From Clostridia bacterium (lineage in GTDB: Bacteria; Bacillota; Peptococcia; DRI-13; SV3-B141), in contig JAHDSB010000027.1 in the NCBI GenBank assembly GCA_018433015.1, positions 1 to 46,379 of the forward strand: DNA of 46,379 bases. The letters are read 5' to 3'. A model generated the notes under the pieces. That model was given only the letters and a program-made list of their open reading frames with translations. It made no database searches and was not told the origin of the DNA. A program made the translations under genes and the position numbers. This document shows, in pieces, positions 19,200-46,379 of this stretch (position 1 is its first letter; each line of letters starts with the position of its first letter).

Positions 19200-19317
19200 T
19201 GTGATTTGAATAAAAAAAGTTAAAGGAATAAAGGGTTAAATATTGAATATATCATGTTGGCAGATAATCAGCTTAAACAGCTAATTATATATATTCCTGA
19301 AATTGGGAGGGTTAATT

Positions 19318-20511
19318 ATGAGTAGAACTGTAGGAACAACGGTGAGAGGAATTAGAGCACCCATTATAAAAGAAGGAGATAATTTAGTAGAAATCGTTGC
19401 AAAATCTCTCAAAGATTCCTGGGAAACAGAAAAGTATAATCTTCATGATAAAGATGTTGTGGGTATAACCGAATCTTTAGTAGCAAGGGCTCAAGGTAAT
19501 TATGTTACCATTGATAATATAGCCGAAGATGTTAATAGAAAATTAGGTGATGAAATAGGGGTAGTTTTACCAATTTTAAGTAGGAATAGGTTTTCCATTA
19601 TTTTAAAGGGGTTAGCTAGAGGCGTAAAAAAAATGTATTTACTTTTAAGCTATCCTTGTGATGAAGTTGGCAATCATTTAATGGATATAGAAAAAATGGA
19701 TGAATTGGGAATTAATCCATATACGGATGTTTTGAGCGAAAAAAAATACCGGGAGTTGTTTGGGGCAGTCGTTGCTCATAAATTTACCGGTATTGATTAT
19801 GTTCAAATGTATAGGGAAATAGCAGAGCAAGAAAAAGCGGAAATCGAGATAATCCTGGCTAATGATCCGCGGGAAATATTGAAGTTTACAAAAAATATTT
19901 TAACCGCAGATATTCACACCAGAAAAAGAACCAAGAGAATTTTAAAACAAGCAGGGGCTGAAAAAGTTATTGGTCTTGATGACCTTTGTACAGAACCTTT
20001 CAATGGTAGCGGATATAACAAAGATTATGGTTTATTAGGATCGAATAAATCCACGGAGGAACGAATCAAATTATTTCCTCGTAATGGTCAGATATATGTG
20101 GACGAAATCCAAAAGAAAATAAAGGATCTTACAGGTAAAGAGATAGAAGTTATGATCTATGGTGATGGTGCATTTAAAGATCCTGTAGGTAAGATATGGG
20201 AATTGGCTGATCCTGTAGTATCACCAGCCTATACTTCAGGATTAATAGGTACTCCTAATGAATTAAAATTAAAATACTTTGCTGATAATAAATTTGATGG
20301 TCTAGAGAGCCAAGAGATGTGTAAGGCTATGAAAGAATTTATTAGAAATAAGCAGGATGATCTTGTTGGTTCCATGGATTCCCAAGGAACTACCCCTCGC
20401 CAGTTAACAGATTTATTGGGAAGTCTTTGTGACTTGACAAGTGGTAGTGGGGATAAAGGTACTCCTATTATTTTAATCCAAGGGTATTTTGATAATTATG
20501 CAGTTGAATAA
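19318..20511 (+). CDS. CofE-like coenzyme F420-0:gamma-glutamyl ligase family protein
   Basis: This 397-residue protein is of the CofE/FbiB N-terminal (PF01996) family. Visible elements are an early VRGIRAPIIKEGDNLVEIV, DVVGITESLVARAQGN (the usual D-x-x-x-x-x-E-S-x-V-A pattern) and VMIYGDGAFKDPVGKIWELAD. CofE adds glutamates to F420-0, but family members are common in Firmicutes that do not make F420, where their role is unknown. At nearly 400 residues it is longer than the roughly 250-residue archaeal CofE. The ATG at 19318 follows GGGAGGG. No cofC, cofD or cofG/H lies in this window. Confidence 0.8.
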   Translation: MSRTVGTTVRGIRAPIIKEGDNLVEIVAKSLKDSWETEKYNLHDKDVVGITESLVARAQGNYVTIDNIAEDVNRKLGDEIGVVLPILSRNRFSIILKGLARGVKKMYLLLSYPCDEVGNHLMDIEKMDELGINPYTDVLSEKKYRELFGAVVAHKFTGIDYVQMYREIAEQEKAEIEIILANDPREILKFTKNILTADIHTRKRTKRILKQAGAEKVIGLDDLCTEPFNGSGYNKDYGLLGSNKSTEERIKLFPRNGQIYVDEIQKKIKDLTGKEIEVMIYGDGAFKDPVGKIWELADPVVSPAYTSGLIGTPNELKLKYFADNKFDGLESQEMCKAMKEFIRNKQDDLVGSMDSQGTTPRQLTDLLGSLCDLTSGSGDKGTPIILIQGYFDNYAVE

Positions 20512-33908: not shown

Positions 33909-33962
33909 ATTTAAGTAGCGTATTGTGAAGAATAATTGTGGTGATTTAAGGGAGAGATGAAA

Positions 33963-34499
33963 ATGTTTAATGGCGACTGGCAGATTTTTTTCTTATCAGC
34001 TTTGCCGGTTACTGAGTTAAGGGTTTCCATTCCTTTAGCTATATCTTTAGGAATGACACCCATTAGAGCCTATATCTTTGCTGTGTTGGGAAACATTCTG
34101 CCCGTTATGCCTCTTTTATTACTCTTGGATCCGTTCAGTGCTTTGTTTTGTAGGATCCCTGCAGTAGATAGAATATTTAAAAGAGTAATAGAGCGGACTA
34201 GATTAAAAGGAAAGAATGTAGGAAAATATGGGATCTGGGGTTTGGTGCTATTTGTCTCTATACCATTTCCTGGTACGGGTGCTTGGACGGGTGCCATATT
34301 ATCTTGGTTATTAGGAATTAAGATTCTTCCTGCCTTCCTGGCCATATGTGTGGGTGTTTGTTGTGCAGGAATATTGGTTACTTTAGCAAGTGTAGGGGCC
34401 ATTCAGTTGACTTTAGTATATGGCTTAGAATACTTACTTCTTGCCGTTGTGGGAGGATTGCTAATCTATTACATGTTCAGGCAAAAGAAAAAATCATAA
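33963..34499 (+). CDS. COG2426 small multidrug export family (PF06695) membrane protein
   Basis: This membrane protein of about 178 residues has four to five hydrophobic segments. It begins with FFLSALPVTELRVSIPLAISLGM, which carries the conserved Glu-Leu-Arg motif of PF06695 (Sm_multidrug_ex), and has FVSIPFPGTGAWTGAI in the middle. Despite the name, function is not firmly established. I place the start at the ATG at 33963, which has GGGAGAG at proper distance; the ATG at 33957 is too close to it. A strong terminator follows. Confidence 0.85.
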   Translation: MFNGDWQIFFLSALPVTELRVSIPLAISLGMTPIRAYIFAVLGNILPVMPLLLLLDPFSALFCRIPAVDRIFKRVIERTRLKGKNVGKYGIWGLVLFVSIPFPGTGAWTGAILSWLLGIKILPAFLAICVGVCCAGILVTLASVGAIQLTLVYGLEYLLLAVVGGLLIYYMFRQKKKS

Positions 34500-34513
34500 A
34501 TCTTATTATTATG

Positions 34514-34542
34514 GAATAGACTCAGTGTCTATTCTTTTTTTT
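34514..34542 (+). terminator. Rho-independent terminator
   Basis: GAATAGAC (34514-34521) pairs with GTCTATTC (34527-34534), followed by eight T residues. It separates the COG2426 gene from the dcw cluster. Confidence 0.9.
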
Positions 34543-34634
34543 ATAATTAGCTTAAATCAATTTCCAAAAAAAACCAAAAAAATTATAAATTTTTAAAATG
34601 TAGGAAGGAAATTTAAGAGGTAAGTAGAATATAG

Positions 34635-34692
34635 GTGGTAACGAGTGGTGCAGAGTGGTATAATGTGGTTCAAAGTGGTGGGATGGGTGGTG
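34635..34692 (+). promoter_or_regulatory. MraZ-binding repeats overlapping the dcw promoter
   Basis: GTGGTA, GTGGTG, GTGGTA, GTGGTT and GTGGTG start at 34635, 34645, 34655, 34665 and 34675, one every 10 bases. A sixth GTGGTG lies at 34687, 12 bases on. This is the known MraZ operator pattern (GTGG-type direct repeats on one helix face). TATAAT (34659-34664), preceded by TGG as an extended -10, lies inside the third and fourth repeats, so MraZ binding should block its own promoter. Confidence 0.88.
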
Positions 34693-34699
34693 AAACCAA

Positions 34700-35137
34700 A
34701 TGTTTACAGGTGAATATCAGCACTCCGTTGATGGAAAAGGAAGACTGATTATGCCTGCTAGGTTTCGCGAATCCTTAGGTGATGTATTTATAATTACTAA
34801 AGGGTTAGATACCTGCCTCTTTGTTTATTCGCAAGATGAATGGAAAAAAATAGAAGAAAAGTTAAAAAATCTACCTTTTACTAAAAAAGATGCTCGTGCC
34901 TTTGCTCGTTTCTTTTTTTCCGGTGCTAATGAGTGTGAAATAGATAAACAGGGGCGCATTCTTATTAATAGCAATTTAAGAGAATATGCCCATATTAGCA
35001 AGGATGTTGTTGTTATCGGAGTAGGGACGCGAATTGAAATATGGAGTAAGGAAAGATGGGAAGAATATAAAAATGAGACTGAAGAAAACTATGAAGAATT
35101 GGCAGAAAAAATGGTAGAACTGGATTTAGGATTCTGA
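34700..35137 (+). CDS. mraZ: Transcriptional regulator MraZ
   Basis: This 145-residue protein has the two AbrB/SpoVT-like halves typical of Mra[18 protein letters not shown] near residue 12 and [19 protein letters not shown] near residue 80. MraZ forms ring-shaped oligomers, binds repeats in front of its own gene and controls expression of the division and cell-wall cluster. It opens the dcw operon, directly behind the GTGG repeats, and rsmH follows 11 nt later. Confidence 0.95.
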
Positions 35138-35148
35138 GGTGAAAATGT

Positions 35149-36105
35149 GTGAATTATAAAGGACAAGAATTTAAACATGTCCCTGTTTTACTACAAGAAG
35201 TAGTAAAATATCTACAACCTCAACCGGGAAAAGTGGTTATAGATTGTACTGCAGGCGGGGGAGGACATAGTAGAGAGCTCCTGACTCATGTATTACCGGG
35301 AGGAAAACTAATTGCTTTTGATCAGGACATGGACGCTATAGAAGCGGCAGGAAATAGATTACAGGCACTAGGAAAAGAAAATTATATATTAATACATAGC
35401 AGTTTTATTAATTTGCGTAGCGAGTTAAAAAAAATAGGCGTGTCTTCTGCTGATTGTATTTTATTTGATTTAGGTGTTTCTTCTTATCAATTAGATCAGG
35501 GAGAACGAGGATTTAGTTATCAATATGATGCACCCTTGGATATGCGTATGGACAGAAGAGGAGCAACAACAGCATTTGATTTAGTCAACAATGAAAGCGA
35601 AAAAGAATTAACTCGTATTATCAAGGATTATGGAGAAGAACGCTGGGCTAAGAGAATTGCAGAGTTTATTATAGCCGAACGTACCAATGGACCGTTGGAA
35701 ACCACGGGGCAATTAGTAGATGTTATAAAGAAGGCCATACCTCATAAGGTCAGAAGAGAAGGACCTCACCCGGCAAAACGTACCTTTCAGGCATTAAGAA
35801 TTGCGGTAAATAAGGAATTAGATATCTTGAAAGATGCCTTAATTCAAGCCATTGATGTTTTAAATCCGGGAGGAAGGTTAGCAGTAATTACTTTTCATTC
35901 TTTAGAAGATCGTATAACAAAGAATGTTTTTCAAGAAAAAGCACAGGGTTGTATATGTCCCAAAGATTTTCCAGTTTGTGTATGTAAACGCAAGCCGTCA
36001 GTGAAAATATTGACTACAAAACCGATTTTGCCGGGGGAAGAAGAATTAAAAAGCAATCCGCGTTCCCGTAGTGCAAAATTGAGAGTAGTAAAAAAGCTAG
36101 CTTAG
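35149..36105 (+). CDS. rsmH: 16S rRNA (cytosine(1402)-N4)-methyltransferase RsmH
   Basis: This 318-residue protein is of the RsmH (MraW) family. It shows the S-adenosylmethionine loop DCTAGGGGHSRELL (30-43) and the family segments FDLGVSSYQLD, DMRMDRR, AKRTFQALRIAVN and ITFHSLEDRI. It methylates C1402 of 16S rRNA at the ribosomal P site. Translation starts at a GTG (35149) following GAGGTGA. It is in its normal place, second in the dcw cluster. Confidence 0.95.
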   Translation: MNYKGQEFKHVPVLLQEVVKYLQPQPGKVVIDCTAGGGGHSRELLTHVLPGGKLIAFDQDMDAIEAAGNRLQALGKENYILIHSSFINLRSELKKIGVSSADCILFDLGVSSYQLDQGERGFSYQYDAPLDMRMDRRGATTAFDLVNNESEKELTRIIKDYGEERWAKRIAEFIIAERTNGPLETTGQLVDVIKKAIPHKVRREGPHPAKRTFQALRIAVNKELDILKDALIQAIDVLNPGGRLAVITFHSLEDRITKNVFQEKAQGCICPKDFPVCVCKRKPSVKILTTKPILPGEEELKSNPRSRSAKLRVVKKLA

Positions 36106-36132
36106 TTCTAGGTGGAAGGGGAAGTGAATACG

Positions 36133-36648
36133 TTGGCAGTAGCATATAAAAGAGCCGTTGGTTCAGATTTGGAATGGGATTACACCAGTTATCAGAAAAG
36201 GAAAAAACCGGATATTAAAAAGTATGTTAGACAAGAAGCTTCCCCTGTGGTAAAGGTTTTTGCAGGGATTGCTACAATTGCACTTCTTTTTTCTTTAGGA
36301 ATATCATATACGTATTTAAAGGCCAGTAAAGCTCAACTTAATTGGCGCATAAGCAGATTAGAAAACGATATCCACTATATGAATATGAATAATGAAAAAT
36401 TAAATTTAGAAATCGCGCGCTTGAAATCGCTAGATAGAATAGAAACAATGGCTTTACAAATGGGCATGGTAAAAAACCCTTCAGCCCAATACTTAATGTA
36501 TAAGATTAAGAATGAAGATGATAGTAACGCTTCTTCACAAAATACAGAATTACAAAAACAGGCAGAAAATAATGTAGAAGCTGATGAAAACATGTTGCAT
36601 AAAGTAGCTGATGCCTGGCTGAATAAGGACTATTCTTTGAAAGGATAG
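36133..36648 (+). CDS. FtsL-like cell division protein
   Basis: This bitopic protein of about 171 residues has a basic N-terminal cytoplasmic tail, one membrane helix (VKVFAGIATIALLFSLGISY) and an extracellular coiled coil with heptad-like leucines/isoleucines (LNWRISRLENDIHYMNMN). The order and position between rsmH and the transpeptidase gene are those of ftsL; sequence conservation in this family is low. It would help recruit and activate the septal synthase with DivIC/FtsB. The start is uncertain: TTG 36133 has GAAGTGA upstream, while in-frame GTG codons at 36112 and 36124 are less well placed. A C-terminal tail rich in Asn, Gln and Glu is longer than usual. Confidence 0.75.
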   Translation: MAVAYKRAVGSDLEWDYTSYQKRKKPDIKKYVRQEASPVVKVFAGIATIALLFSLGISYTYLKASKAQLNWRISRLENDIHYMNMNNEKLNLEIARLKSLDRIETMALQMGMVKNPSAQYLMYKIKNEDDSNASSQNTELQKQAENNVEADENMLHKVADAWLNKDYSLKG

Positions 36649-36666
36649 TGTTTGGGGTGGAGAAAA

Positions 36667-38799
36667 ATGTCTGTTCCTGTGACTATAAGGAAAAGAATAG
36701 GATTTGTGTTTTTTGTCGCTATCTTCCTTTTGTTAGCTGTTATGCTACGTTTAGTTTGGATTCAGTTCATACAAGGAGAAAATCTTCGGCAAAAAGCCTT
36801 TGCTGCACGTTTTCGTAATGTAGAAGTCAAGGCCAAAAGAGGAATAATTTATGATACAAGAGGTAGACCTTTGGCTATCAGTGTAAGCACTGATTCTTTT
36901 TATGCCATACCTGCCCAAGTAAGAAAAGCCGATAAGGTGAAAGAAACAGCAGAAAAACTTGCAGAAATATTAGAGATGGATAAAGAAAAGGTACAAAGTC
37001 TGATTACAAAGCATCAGGCTTTTGTTTGGATTAAGCGTCATGTGCCTGATGAACAGGCCCAGAAGATAAAAGCTTTAAAGTTAAAAGGTATTAATTATGT
37101 GGAAGAACCGGAACGCTTTTATCCCAAAGATAAATTGTTGGCACATATCTTAGGCTTTGCGGGCATGGATAATCAAGGGTTATATGGAATTGAAGTCAGT
37201 TACGATAAGGAATTGAGCGGAAAATCAGGGACAATTATGGTTGAGTATGATGCCCGAGGTCAAGAAATACCGGACGCTTTACAAAAATACATTCCGCCGG
37301 AAGATGGTAATAATATATATTTAACTATTGATGAGACAATTCAATATGTAGTGGAACGCGAATTAGATAAGCTTTTTGCTTTAAGAAAACCCAAAAAAGC
37401 CGGAGTTATTGTCATGGAAGTTAGGACAGGAAGAATTTTAGCCATATCTGCCAGACCTAACTTTGACCCCAATAATTATCAGGATTATGATCCTGCGGTA
37501 TGGAAAAATCCTATGATTTCAGATGTATATGAGCCTGGATCTACGTTTAAACCTGTTACGGCAGCAGGGGCCTTAGAAGAGGGAATAGTAAAACCGGAAG
37601 ATAGATTTTATTGTCATGGCTATATTAAGGTAGGCAAGGAAATAATGAGGTGCTGGAGGACGGGGCGTCCTCATGGAAGCCAAACCTTTGTAGAAGGCAT
37701 TAGAAATTCCTGTAACCCAGTTTTTATAAGTGTAGGCTTAAAGATGGGAACGGATGTTTTTTATCGCTATCTTAATGGTTTTGGATTTGGACAAAAGACA
37801 GGTATTGAATTGCCGGGAGAGGCCTATGGTTTAGTAGTAAATAAAAATAGAGCTAAGGAAATTGACCTGGCTTCTATGGCTATGGGGCAGGCCAATGCTG
37901 TTACACCTATACAATTAATCACAGCTTTTTCTGCTATAGCAAACGACGGATACTTAATGAAGCCTCAGATTGTTAAAGAAATCAGGGATAAAGATGGCAA
38001 TTTAATTAGAACCATCGAGCCGGAGCAGGTGCGGCAAGTTATCTCGAAAAAAACATCCCGTACCATGTTAGATATATTGGAAACTGTCGTTAGTGAAGGA
38101 ACAGGGAAAAATGCTTATATTGAAGGGTATCGGGTAGGCGGCAAAACGGGTACTGCCCAGAAAATTATACCCGGTGGTGGATATTCTACCTCGGAATATA
38201 TTGGATCGTTTATCGGTGTTGCACCCACAAATGATCCGAAAATAGCTGTACTTGTTGTTGTAGACTCTCCAGAAGGGGTATACTACGGTGGTACAGTAGC
38301 TGCTCCAGTTTTAAAGGAGATTGTTAAGGATACTATGCGCTACTTGCAAGTACCCGCCCAAGTTGAACCCGATAAAATAACGCCGAAAACTACTACTGTT
38401 GAAATGCCCAATATCGTAGGAAGCGATGTGACAAATGCTGTAAAACAATTAGAAAACTTGAAACTTCAGGCCAATGTGGTAGGGGAAGGGACTCAAGTTA
38501 AAGCACAATTACCTCTACCGGGCAGCGAAATACATCAAGCAGGAAATGTTATTATATACACCAGTATTCCTGCAGAAGGAGGAAATCCTGAGTCAGTTGT
38601 TGTTCCAGATTTAACGGGTAAAACTGTGGGAGAAGTGCGAGAAATTACCAAACTCCTCAACTTAAATTTTGTATTAAAAGGCAGTGGCTATGTAGTTAAA
38701 CAAGATCCGGAACCGGGTTTATTAGTTCCTGTGGGGACAAAAATAACTGTTAACATGGAAAAGCCAATACCCCATGAGTTAGAACCGGCAGGTCCATAG
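36667..38799 (+). CDS. Class B penicillin-binding protein with PASTA domains (FtsI/SpoVD type)
   Basis: This 710-residue septal transpeptidase has a short cytoplasmic tail and a membrane helix at about 11-34. A PBP dimerisation domain follows (RGIIYDTRGRPLA near 58), then the catalytic domain with S292-TFK (SxxK), S348-CN and KTGTAQ near 495, and two C-terminal PASTA repeats (MPNIVGSDVTNAV and VPDLTGKTVGEV). It cross-links peptidoglycan together with the FtsW-like glycosyltransferase encoded downstream. Whether it serves vegetative division (FtsI/Pbp2B) or spore cortex (SpoVD) cannot be told from sequence here. The ATG at 36667 has GGTGGAG upstream. Confidence 0.9.
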   Translation: MSVPVTIRKRIGFVFFVAIFLLLAVMLRLVWIQFIQGENLRQKAFAARFRNVEVKAKRGIIYDTRGRPLAISVSTDSFYAIPAQVRKADKVKETAEKLAEILEMDKEKVQSLITKHQAFVWIKRHVPDEQAQKIKALKLKGINYVEEPERFYPKDKLLAHILGFAGMDNQGLYGIEVSYDKELSGKSGTIMVEYDARGQEIPDALQKYIPPEDGNNIYLTIDETIQYVVERELDKLFALRKPKKAGVIVMEVRTGRILAISARPNFDPNNYQDYDPAVWKNPMISDVYEPGSTFKPVTAAGALEEGIVKPEDRFYCHGYIKVGKEIMRCWRTGRPHGSQTFVEGIRNSCNPVFISVGLKMGTDVFYRYLNGFGFGQKTGIELPGEAYGLVVNKNRAKEIDLASMAMGQANAVTPIQLITAFSAIANDGYLMKPQIVKEIRDKDGNLIRTIEPEQVRQVISKKTSRTMLDILETVVSEGTGKNAYIEGYRVGGKTGTAQKIIPGGGYSTSEYIGSFIGVAPTNDPKIAVLVVVDSPEGVYYGGTVAAPVLKEIVKDTMRYLQVPAQVEPDKITPKTTTVEMPNIVGSDVTNAVKQLENLKLQANVVGEGTQVKAQLPLPGSEIHQAGNVIIYTSIPAEGGNPESVVVPDLTGKTVGEVREITKLLNLNFVLKGSGYVVKQDPEPGLLVPVGTKITVNMEKPIPHELEPAGP

Positions 38800-38863: not shown

Positions 38864-40363
38864 ATGAAGCTGGAGGAGCTTATTAAATCTACAGACATAC
38901 TGGCCTGGGAAGGATGCTTAAATAAAACGATAACCGGTATAACATATGATTCAAGACAAATTACAGCAGGAAGCCTTTTTGTAGCAATAGCAGGTTTTAC
39001 TACTGATGGACACCAATATATTAATGATGCTATATCCCGAGGCGCAGTAGCAGTGGTAATAGAAAATGAAAACTATAAATCTACTGACTACGCTTGGATA
39101 CACGTTGAACAAAGTCGCATAGCTCTAGCTGATATGAGTAATACATTTTATGGCTATCCCAGCAGCCATTTAAATTTAATAGGAGTGACCGGTACAAATG
39201 GAAAGACTACAGTTACTAACTTAATCACTAATATTCTAGAGGATGCCGGTCATACTGCAGGATTAGCAGGGACAATACATAATCGTATTGGGAAAGAGAT
39301 TATTCCTGTACATCACACTACACCGGAAGCACCTGACTTACAAGAGTTGTTTGTGAAGTTTTTAGATAAAGGTGCAAATTATGCCGTAATGGAAGTCAGT
39401 TCTCATGCCTTAGAATTAGAACGTGTAAGGGGAACTGAATTTGATGTGGCTGTTTATACAAACTTAACGCAAGATCACTTGGATTTTCATGGCAATATGG
39501 AAAACTATTTGAGAGCAAAGGGTAAACTTTTCAGTTCTTTGAGTACCAAGGGAAGAAAACAGCGCCGTAAATTTGCCATATTGAATAAAGATGATAAATA
39601 TCACCATGAATTAGCAGAAATGACTAGTGTACCAATTATAACTTATGGAATAAAAGGACCTGCAGATATTAAAGCGGAGAATGTACGGGTTCTACCCCAA
39701 GGGGTTCAATACGAATTGCACTATACAGATCAAGTTATTCCTGTAAAATTAAAGTTAACCGGTATATTTAATGTTTATAATTCATTAGCTGCTATAGCGG
39801 TGGGTTTAGTAGAAGGAATAGAAATTAAAAAAATAATTAAAAGTTTAGAAAGAATACCTAGTATCCCGGGACGCTTTGAAAAAGTAGAGGCAGGGCAAGA
39901 TTTCACTGTAATTGTTGATTATTCTCATACTCCGGACAGTCTAGAGAATTGTTTAAAAACAACAAGAGAATTTATTAAAGATAGGATCATTACAGTCTTT
40001 GGTTGTGGAGGAGACAGAGATAAAAAGAAAAGGCCCATCATGGGTGAGATAGCAGGGAAACTTTCTGATTTTTGTGTTGTAACATCAGATAATCCGCGCT
40101 CTGAAAATCCCCACGAAATCATTAGGGGTATAGTTCCGGGAGTTAATAAAGTTATGGGCTCCCACCAGTATGTAACTATTGCAGATAGAAGAGATGCTAT
40201 AAATTATGCCATTAGCAAGGCCAGCTCCGGTGATGCTGTGATAATTGCCGGTAAGGGTCATGAAGACTATCAGATTATAGGAGATAAGGTAATTCACTTT
40301 GATGATAAAGAAGTAGCAAGGGAAGCCCTAGCCTCTCTAGTACAATATCGGCAAGTAAAGTAA
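38864..40363 (+). CDS. murE: UDP-N-acetylmuramoyl-tripeptide synthetase MurE (meso-DAP adding)
   Basis: This 499-residue Mur ligase has an N-terminal UDP-binding domain (TGITYDSRQITAG near 24-36), the ATP loop GTNGKTT (110-116) in the central domain and a C-terminal domain containing SDNPRSENP. DNPR in that place is the signature of enzymes that add meso-diaminopimelate and not lysine, so this organism likely has m-DAP peptidoglycan. The enzyme acts in the cytoplasm on UDP-MurNAc-L-Ala-D-Glu. GGGAGGTG precedes the ATG. Confidence 0.94.
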   Translation: MKLEELIKSTDILAWEGCLNKTITGITYDSRQITAGSLFVAIAGFTTDGHQYINDAISRGAVAVVIENENYKSTDYAWIHVEQSRIALADMSNTFYGYPSSHLNLIGVTGTNGKTTVTNLITNILEDAGHTAGLAGTIHNRIGKEIIPVHHTTPEAPDLQELFVKFLDKGANYAVMEVSSHALELERVRGTEFDVAVYTNLTQDHLDFHGNMENYLRAKGKLFSSLSTKGRKQRRKFAILNKDDKYHHELAEMTSVPIITYGIKGPADIKAENVRVLPQGVQYELHYTDQVIPVKLKLTGIFNVYNSLAAIAVGLVEGIEIKKIIKSLERIPSIPGRFEKVEAGQDFTVIVDYSHTPDSLENCLKTTREFIKDRIITVFGCGGDRDKKKRPIMGEIAGKLSDFCVVTSDNPRSENPHEIIRGIVPGVNKVMGSHQYVTIADRRDAINYAISKASSGDAVIIAGKGHEDYQIIGDKVIHFDDKEVAREALASLVQYRQVK

Positions 40364-45451: not shown

Positions 45452-46379
45452 ATGCGGATCATATTAACAGGGGGAGGTACGGGAGGACATATCTATCCTG
45501 CTGTTGCTATCGGACAGGCTATAAAAAAAGTATGGCCTAATGCTGAATTCCTTTATGTTGGTACTAAAAGAGGATTAGAAACTAAAATTGTATCTGCTGC
45601 AGGCTACAAGCTAATAACTCTTGATATTATGGGTTGGGAAAGAAAGGTATCTTTGCAAGCTTTAAAGGCTGGTTGGAAGGCAATACGGGGCTTGCAGCAA
45701 GCCACTAAAATAGTCAAAGACTTTAAGCCTCAGCTAGTTATTGGGACTGGTGGTTATGTGTGTCTGCCTGTTGTATGGGCTGCTGCACGGCAAGGTGTAC
45801 CTACACTTATTCATGAACAAAATGCTATGCCGGGATTAACTAATAAGTTTCTTTCTCGCCGTGTTGATGGTATAATGCTAACGTTTCCCCAATCAAAAAA
45901 ATATTTTTCTCAAAAACTACAAGAAAAATTATATGTTACTGGTTTGCCTGTACGTCCTGCTATTCTTGAAGTAACCAAAGAGGAAGGCCTAAAACACTTT
46001 GGTCTTTCCAAGGAGAATTTGACAATAGTAAGTGTAGGGGGGTCACGGGGCGCTAAGAGTATTAATGAAGCCATGCTTCGTGTATGCGTGGAATACGCAG
46101 CCCCCTTAAGTAAGGGATCCCTTAGAAAAACTTATGATTCAACGGGAAGGATAAGTTATAAATCTCCGGGTGTCCAGATAATTCATATCACGGGGACAGA
46201 TGGGTACACTAATTTCCTGAGCAAGTTACAAAGAGCAGGTATAAATATGGCTAATAATGGTAATATTATCGTAAGACCGTATATACACGAAATGGAGTAT
46301 GCTTTAGCCTGTGCTGATTTGTGTATTGCCCGGGCCGGTGCAGCCTTTCTCTCAGAAATGACGGCTCGTGGAATTCCAG
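45452..46379 (+). CDS. murG: MurG N-acetylglucosaminyltransferase, 3' end cut by window
   Basis: An open frame starts at ATG 45452 (GAGGTGAGG upstream) and runs without stop through the window end, 309 codons visible. It begins with MRIILTGGGTGGHIYPA, the MurG donor/acceptor glycine motif, and later has GTGGYVCLPVVWAA, HEQNAMPGLTNK, SVGGSRGAKSINEA and IARAGAAFLSEMTARGIP. MurG transfers GlcNAc from UDP-GlcNAc to lipid I, making lipid II at the inner membrane face. Between the SRGAKSINEA and IIHITG segments there is an extra stretch of roughly 20 residues compared with the B. subtilis and E. coli forms I recall. The C-terminal end lies outside. Confidence 0.92.
   Translation, partial: MRIILTGGGTGGHIYPAVAIGQAIKKVWPNAEFLYVGTKRGLETKIVSAAGYKLITLDIMGWERKVSLQALKAGWKAIRGLQQATKIVKDFKPQLVIGTGGYVCLPVVWAAARQGVPTLIHEQNAMPGLTNKFLSRRVDGIMLTFPQSKKYFSQKLQEKLYVTGLPVRPAILEVTKEEGLKHFGLSKENLTIVSVGGSRGAKSINEAMLRVCVEYAAPLSKGSLRKTYDSTGRISYKSPGVQIIHITGTDGYTNFLSKLQRAGINMANNGNIIVRPYIHEMEYALACADLCIARAGAAFLSEMTARGIP

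Follow-up and report, generated by a model that had tools for sequence, protein, structure and literature searches.

The dcw operon in the window analysed here (the whole stretch of DNA under study, 46,379 nt) is likely to be read from two tandem promoters, a sigma-H promoter (P1) and a sigma-A promoter (P2), which would both be gated by MraZ through one array of GTGG boxes. MraZ binding at this place, the two transcription starts, the use of sigma-H and the repression are all inferred from the sequence.

The GTGG array at the head of the dcw cluster

Five GTGG boxes stand at exact 10-bp steps in front of mraZ, and a sixth starts 12 bp after the fifth and ends nine bases before the mraZ ATG (Table 1). 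The initial annotation had described five boxes in step and a sixth shifted by two bases, and both its coordinates and its count were confirmed; the further GTGG that overlaps box 5 was absent from its list. When the 3.75-Mb genome was searched for at least three GTGG at 10-bp steps, the array was the sole place found, and the reversed-pattern control gave none. A three-box pattern with up to three mismatches matched the window five times, four times in the array and once at 45750, compared with a shuffle mean of 0.38, and none of 100 shuffles reached five matches.

Since the array is unique in the genome and lies directly 5' of mraZ, it is most likely the MraZ operator heading mraZ, mraW, an ftsL-like gene, a penicillin-binding protein gene and a Mur ligase gene. 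At least three direct repeats with a GTG core and a 10-bp period lie over the promoter and the predicted start, and the repeats are kept 5' of mraZ in relatives, with runs of at least three in 66 of 112 upstreams. The proposal that this is a MraZ operator array at the head of dcw is thus supported, as the next ORF is MraZ (PF02381) and the repeats are conserved before mraZ.

The AlphaFold2 model of the window MraZ had a pLDDT of 92.6 and matched solved MraZ chains at Z scores of 19.9-22.8 (1n0e, Z 22.8). Matches beyond MraZ (FliM, CheC and similar proteins, Z below 6) were set aside as a common arrangement. The order mraZ, mraW, ftsL/divIC-like gene, penicillin-binding protein with PASTA domains and Mur ligase identifies the head of a dcw cluster. 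The gene before mraZ (33957-34499) belongs to the PF06695 small multidrug export family, and the terminator-like hairpin follows it.

Table 1. Features of the mraZ promoter region and the genes around it (window coordinates)
Feature	Position	Strand	Remark
Terminator-like hairpin	34513..34535	+	Separates the preceding gene from the mraZ promoter region; 1 such hairpin, compared with 0.1 on average in shuffles
P1 -35 element GAAGGAAAT	34604..34612	+	Exact fit to RNAGGAWWW
P1 -10 element GTAGAAT	34624..34630	+	Exact fit to RNNGAAT; 11 bp after the -35 element
MraZ box 1 (GTGG)	34635..34638	+	4 nt past the P1 -10; expected over the putative P1 start
MraZ box 2	34645..34648	+	Sequence
MraZ box 3	34655..34658	+	Supplies TG of the extended -10
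Extended -10 TGGTATAAT, P2	34656..34664	+	Probable sigma-A promoter
MraZ box 4	34665..34668	+	Sequence
MraZ box 5	34675..34678	+	Further GTGG begins at 34678
Shine-Dalgarno-like GGTGGTGA	34686..34693	+	7/8 match to GGAGGTGA; overlaps box 6
Displaced terminal box 6	34687..34690	+	12 bp after box 5; relatives more often 11 or 21
mraZ, 145 aa	34700..35137	+	PF02381, 157.6 bits, two domains; expected array binder
mraW (rsmH), second dcw gene	35149..36105	+	PF01795, 406 bits
ftsL/divIC-like gene	36112..36648	+	PF04977, 21 bits (below the cut-off of 28.9); position
Penicillin-binding protein with PASTA domains (spoVD/ftsI type)	36652..38799	+	PF00905, PF03717, PF03793
Mur ligase (murE by position)	38864..40363	+	PF08245, PF02875, PF01225

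Two candidate promoters at the array

The sigma-H consensus in B. subtilis is RNAGGAWWW-N11/12-RNNGAAT, and this motif was sought here. P1 reads GAAGGAAAT-N11-GTAGAAT (34604-34630), with four bases between its -10 element and box 1, and its transcription would start at about 34637-34639. The dcw promoter had previously been placed within the array; there is indeed a -10 element there, but the main element, P1, lies just upstream and had been missed. A scan for standard -35 and -10 elements (TTGACA/TATAAT) reported neither P1 nor P2, and its single site was inside the upstream gene.

To compare relatives, 112 distinct mraZ upstreams were used, selected without reference to the motifs and drawn from 80 loci, this genome and relatives of its order and class; they remained from 126 upstreams after removal of L045, L090 and L118 (shorter than 120 bases) and 11 duplicates. 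The exact sigma-H-type motif occurred in 21 of the 112 (shuffle mean 0.17, maximum 2) and the relaxed motif in 35 (shuffle mean 1.4, maximum 5). When spacings of 2-25 were scanned in the same upstreams, the halves of P1 were paired only at 11 (20 cases) and 12 (one case). Among 398 genomes of the phylum, the P1 pattern followed by two boxes within 2-14 bases was found in 148 (37%), while the reversed control was found in none of the 398. Thirty of these promoter-plus-boxes places were fetched, and all 30 were 5' of mraZ. Sigma-A-like -35/-10 pairs with at most one mismatch in each element were present in 11 of the 112 upstreams at 17 bp and in seven at 15 bp, indicating that the sigma-H form is not universal.

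The second candidate, P2, has TATAAT (34659-34664) between boxes 3 and 4 and TGG (34656-34658) just before it, and would start transcription at about 34670-34672; no good -35 element is present in its sequence. GTGGTATAATGTGG was found in seven of the 112 upstreams and never in shuffles; it forms spacer 3 in the window and in L105, L107, L108, L109 and L112, and spacer 2 in L115. The extended -10 TGNTATAAT was found in eight of the 112 (shuffle mean 0.99, maximum 3). In L097 and L110, TATAAT is kept next to a decayed box 3 that reads AAGG or AGGG, which points to selection on the -10 element itself. L103 also has a decayed box 3, and the adjoining TATATA is retained. Given the conservation of TATAAT in close relatives, the element is probably a second promoter of the extended -10 type, and the initial annotation of an extended -10 inside the array was borne out in this respect.

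Box layout among relatives and competing readings

The longest strict GTGG run at 10-bp steps comprised one, two, three, four or five boxes in 3, 43, 41, 14 and 11 of the 112 upstreams, respectively. Ten of the 11 five-box runs came from the window's order, and the eleventh, L094, from another family of the class. Four in-step boxes were found in 35 of the 398 sampled phylum genomes, a genome-wide pattern count that may include places other than mraZ upstreams, and the reversed control was found in three (G227, G333 and G410). Five boxes, seen as two overlapping matches, occurred in this genome and three others of its order (G000, G005, G012 and G016). G136 also gave a five-box match, which is a perfect GTGGTCATCT tandem and counts here only as a candidate array. 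Five boxes are therefore common in the window's order and no peculiarity of this genome, and box number was rejected as a novelty. The statement that about three repeats are usual holds for the wider survey of 112 upstreams but not for the window's own order, and the idea that the box number here is unusual was not borne out.

The position of the last box was examined in a set of 142 upstreams, consisting of the 112 and 30 loci picked by the promoter pattern itself; because of this selection, the larger set informs box layout only. The GTGG-GTGG distances, for which no shuffle was run, peaked at 10 (288), 20 (167), 21 (83), 30 (82), 31 (87) and 41 (67), indicating a common layout of 10-10-(10)-11. 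In this layout, the last box is displaced by a single base and lies 11 or 21 bp beyond the final box in step. A later GTGG past the last in-step box lay at 11 bp 16 times, at 21 bp 32 times and at 12 bp once. The shifted sixth box had also been taken as unusual, which did not hold, as the last of the six boxes in L089, L091 and L094 is displaced too, in their case at 11. In L089, L091, L094 and L169-L192, the terminal box is repeatedly one base off and often enters a G-rich stretch resembling a ribosome-binding site.

GGAGGTGA is the ribosome-pairing (Shine-Dalgarno) consensus. As box 6 lies within GGTGGTGA, which agrees with it at seven of eight bases, box 6 likely doubles as a MraZ box and a ribosome-binding site. 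It is quite possible, if somewhat short of an even chance, that the sixth GTGG is a Shine-Dalgarno sequence only and no MraZ site. The same seven-of-eight match ahead of the ATG at 34700 would suit this, and so would a spacing that is off by two. However, many relatives retain a GTGG 11 or 21 bp past the last in-step box, and these late GTGGs often have AAA in front, like other boxes, where the window's box 6 has ATGG.

The promoters can also be read differently. It is unlikely that the sole promoter is the sigma-A extended -10 in the array, with an unusual box number that makes the MraZ complex larger or the repression graded. Such a promoter would be TGGTATAAT, helped by the conservation of GTGGTATAATGTGG described above, and five or six boxes do exceed the four named in the title of the solved complex 9sz7; but the AGGA and GAAT halves are more widespread than the array TATAAT by the exact, relaxed and phylum-wide counts, and five boxes are ordinary in the order. 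Equally improbable, in our judgment, is that the GAAT element of P1 is a sigma-A -10, with AGGA incidental or an activator site and sigma-H uninvolved. TAGAAT matches TATAAT at five of six positions, and Spo0A is missing from eight of the 148 promoter-bearing genomes, as this reading would allow. Against it, relatives often have GCGAAT, GGAGAAT or GTGGAAT, which are poor sigma-A -10 elements; AGGAWWW lies only 11-12 bp from the GAAT element among all spacings scanned, which is the sigma-H spacing; and the TTGACA/TATAAT scan gave no site there. We consider it very unlikely that the G-rich repeats form a G-quadruplex that governs transcription of dcw. Such a role has been proposed for the mraZ promoter of S. 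aureus, with CD and NMR support reported for a quadruplex in the G-rich region downstream of it (PMC11796246). The window array is likewise G-rich on one strand, but its conserved features, GTGG and the 10-bp period, are not needed by a quadruplex, and by inspection it offers mostly GG tracts with long loops.

Sigma-H, sporulation and the proposed MraZ control

The genome encodes SigH (TIGR02859, 381 bits, cut-off 294.8), Spo0A, two SpoVS proteins and a SpoIIAA-like protein that scored below its family cut-off. Sigma-H-type motifs were found 5' of ftsZ (exact) and, with at most one mismatch per half, 5' of spo0A, the spoIIAA-like gene and one of the two spoVS genes. In 58 kb of the contig, 29 genes have a gap of at least 50 bases, and matches of the looser kind preceded 15 of them, so that the motifs at spo0A, the spoIIAA-like gene and spoVS weigh little alone; exact matches preceded three of the 29. 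The exact motif at ftsZ lies 93 nt 5' of the gene (L168, 11417-11443; contig C135, about 51416-51442, past the window), and another exact motif lies 54 nt 5' of the ORF 19303-20511 in the window. Genome-wide, the exact motif was counted 63+52 times versus 25+28 times for the reversed pattern, although AGGA of ribosome-binding sites may inflate these counts.

Spo0A was present in 140 of the 148 genomes with the exact pattern versus 205 of the 250 lacking that pattern (p=2e-4 with no kinship correction), and Spo0A is a weak discriminator because 345 of the 398 genomes have it. Within the class, 37 relatives were scored, the window genome included; the table excludes G028, which has no mraZ, and G017 and G035, whose upstreams were too short. 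The relaxed motif was present in 21 of them, 19 with Spo0A, and absent from 16, eight with Spo0A (19/2 versus 8/8, p=0.009, kinship ignored). All scored members of families f7 and f10 are among the 16 without the motif. The coupling between P1 and sporulation is thus weak, a loose and statistical one. PMC6362236 reports massive transcription in C. beijerinckii, from spore cortex formation onward, of mraZ or of its operon (the wording is ambiguous); this timing is compatible with control by sigma-H or by a later stage of sporulation but is no proof of it.

In the arrangement that we favour, sigma-H RNA polymerase would read P1, directly upstream of box 1, and sigma-A polymerase would read P2, with TG from box 3 and TATAAT in spacer 3. 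MraZ, as a ring-shaped oligomer, would contact one box per helix turn, and bound MraZ would cover the P1 start with the region downstream and all of P2. The genes mraZ, mraW, ftsL, PBP and murE would then be held down until MraZ declines or sigma-H increases at the sporulation transition. The terminal box may be 1-2 bp off step because it doubles as a ribosome-binding site, because it fits the helical repeat over a longer distance, or both. As a conjecture, five or six boxes, being more than four, may engage more than one face of the MraZ ring.

MraZ operators over promoters are already known. In B. cenocepacia, four 7-nt repeats with 3-nt spacers directly follow the -10 and cover the start, 'as in E. 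coli', in the available text of PMC7761207, and the window follows this design, with MraZ repeats right after the -10 and over the putative start. The mraZ repeats of M. gallisepticum are given as (AAAGTGKN3)3 (PMC5282649, available text), and MraZ is described as repressing its own operon in the accessible part of PMC8475190. Solved MraZ-DNA complexes comprise, by their titles, 9r4j 'with its promoter' and 9sz7 with a 4-box promoter (M. genitalium). The MraZ operators of E. coli, B. cenocepacia and mycoplasmas, as far as these sources describe them, share with the window direct repeats with a GTG core and a 10-bp period before mraZ, whereas the window has five in-step boxes and a displaced terminal box, a sigma-H-type promoter and a second -10 in the array. 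In S. aureus, the sequence from the mraZ promoter to mraZ likewise includes a G-rich stretch, but there it is interpreted as a G-quadruplex (PMC11796246), and that study uses neither the term 'MraZ box' nor 'MraZ binds'. This S. aureus region, as described there, may instead or also be an array of MraZ boxes.

Among the several promoters of the B. subtilis ftsAZ operon, one depends on sigma-H. This operon resembles the window in being a division operon with a vegetative and a sigma-H promoter, and the exact motif 5' of ftsZ in the window's genome recalls it; it differs in being another operon, whereas the dcw promoter in the window is overlaid by MraZ boxes. Within the literature searched, which mostly did not extend to subscription journals, no description was found of a sigma-H promoter on mraZ or of the 10-10-(10)-11 layout in which the terminal box coincides with the ribosome-binding site. 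The fusion of a sigma-H-type promoter to a MraZ operator and this layout are new within that literature, and an earlier description may exist.

The wider generalisation has, in our estimate, about an even chance of being right: the dcw operon in Bacillota would widely be read from a sigma-H promoter fused to a phased MraZ array laid out as 10-10-(10)-11, its last box also serving as ribosome-binding site, MraZ would be a general gate between vegetative growth and sporulation, and arrays of five to six boxes would engage more than one ring face. The tandem-promoter reading leads to a clear prediction about transcriptomes and start-site maps that already exist, and a MraZ array offers an alternative reading of the G-rich mraZ promoter regions discussed as quadruplexes. 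If true, MraZ would be the gate between vegetative and sporulation-phase provision of enzymes for division and the septal wall, and an operator anchored to a sigma-H promoter in spore-formers would suggest when this brake matters, namely at the switch from medial to polar septation.
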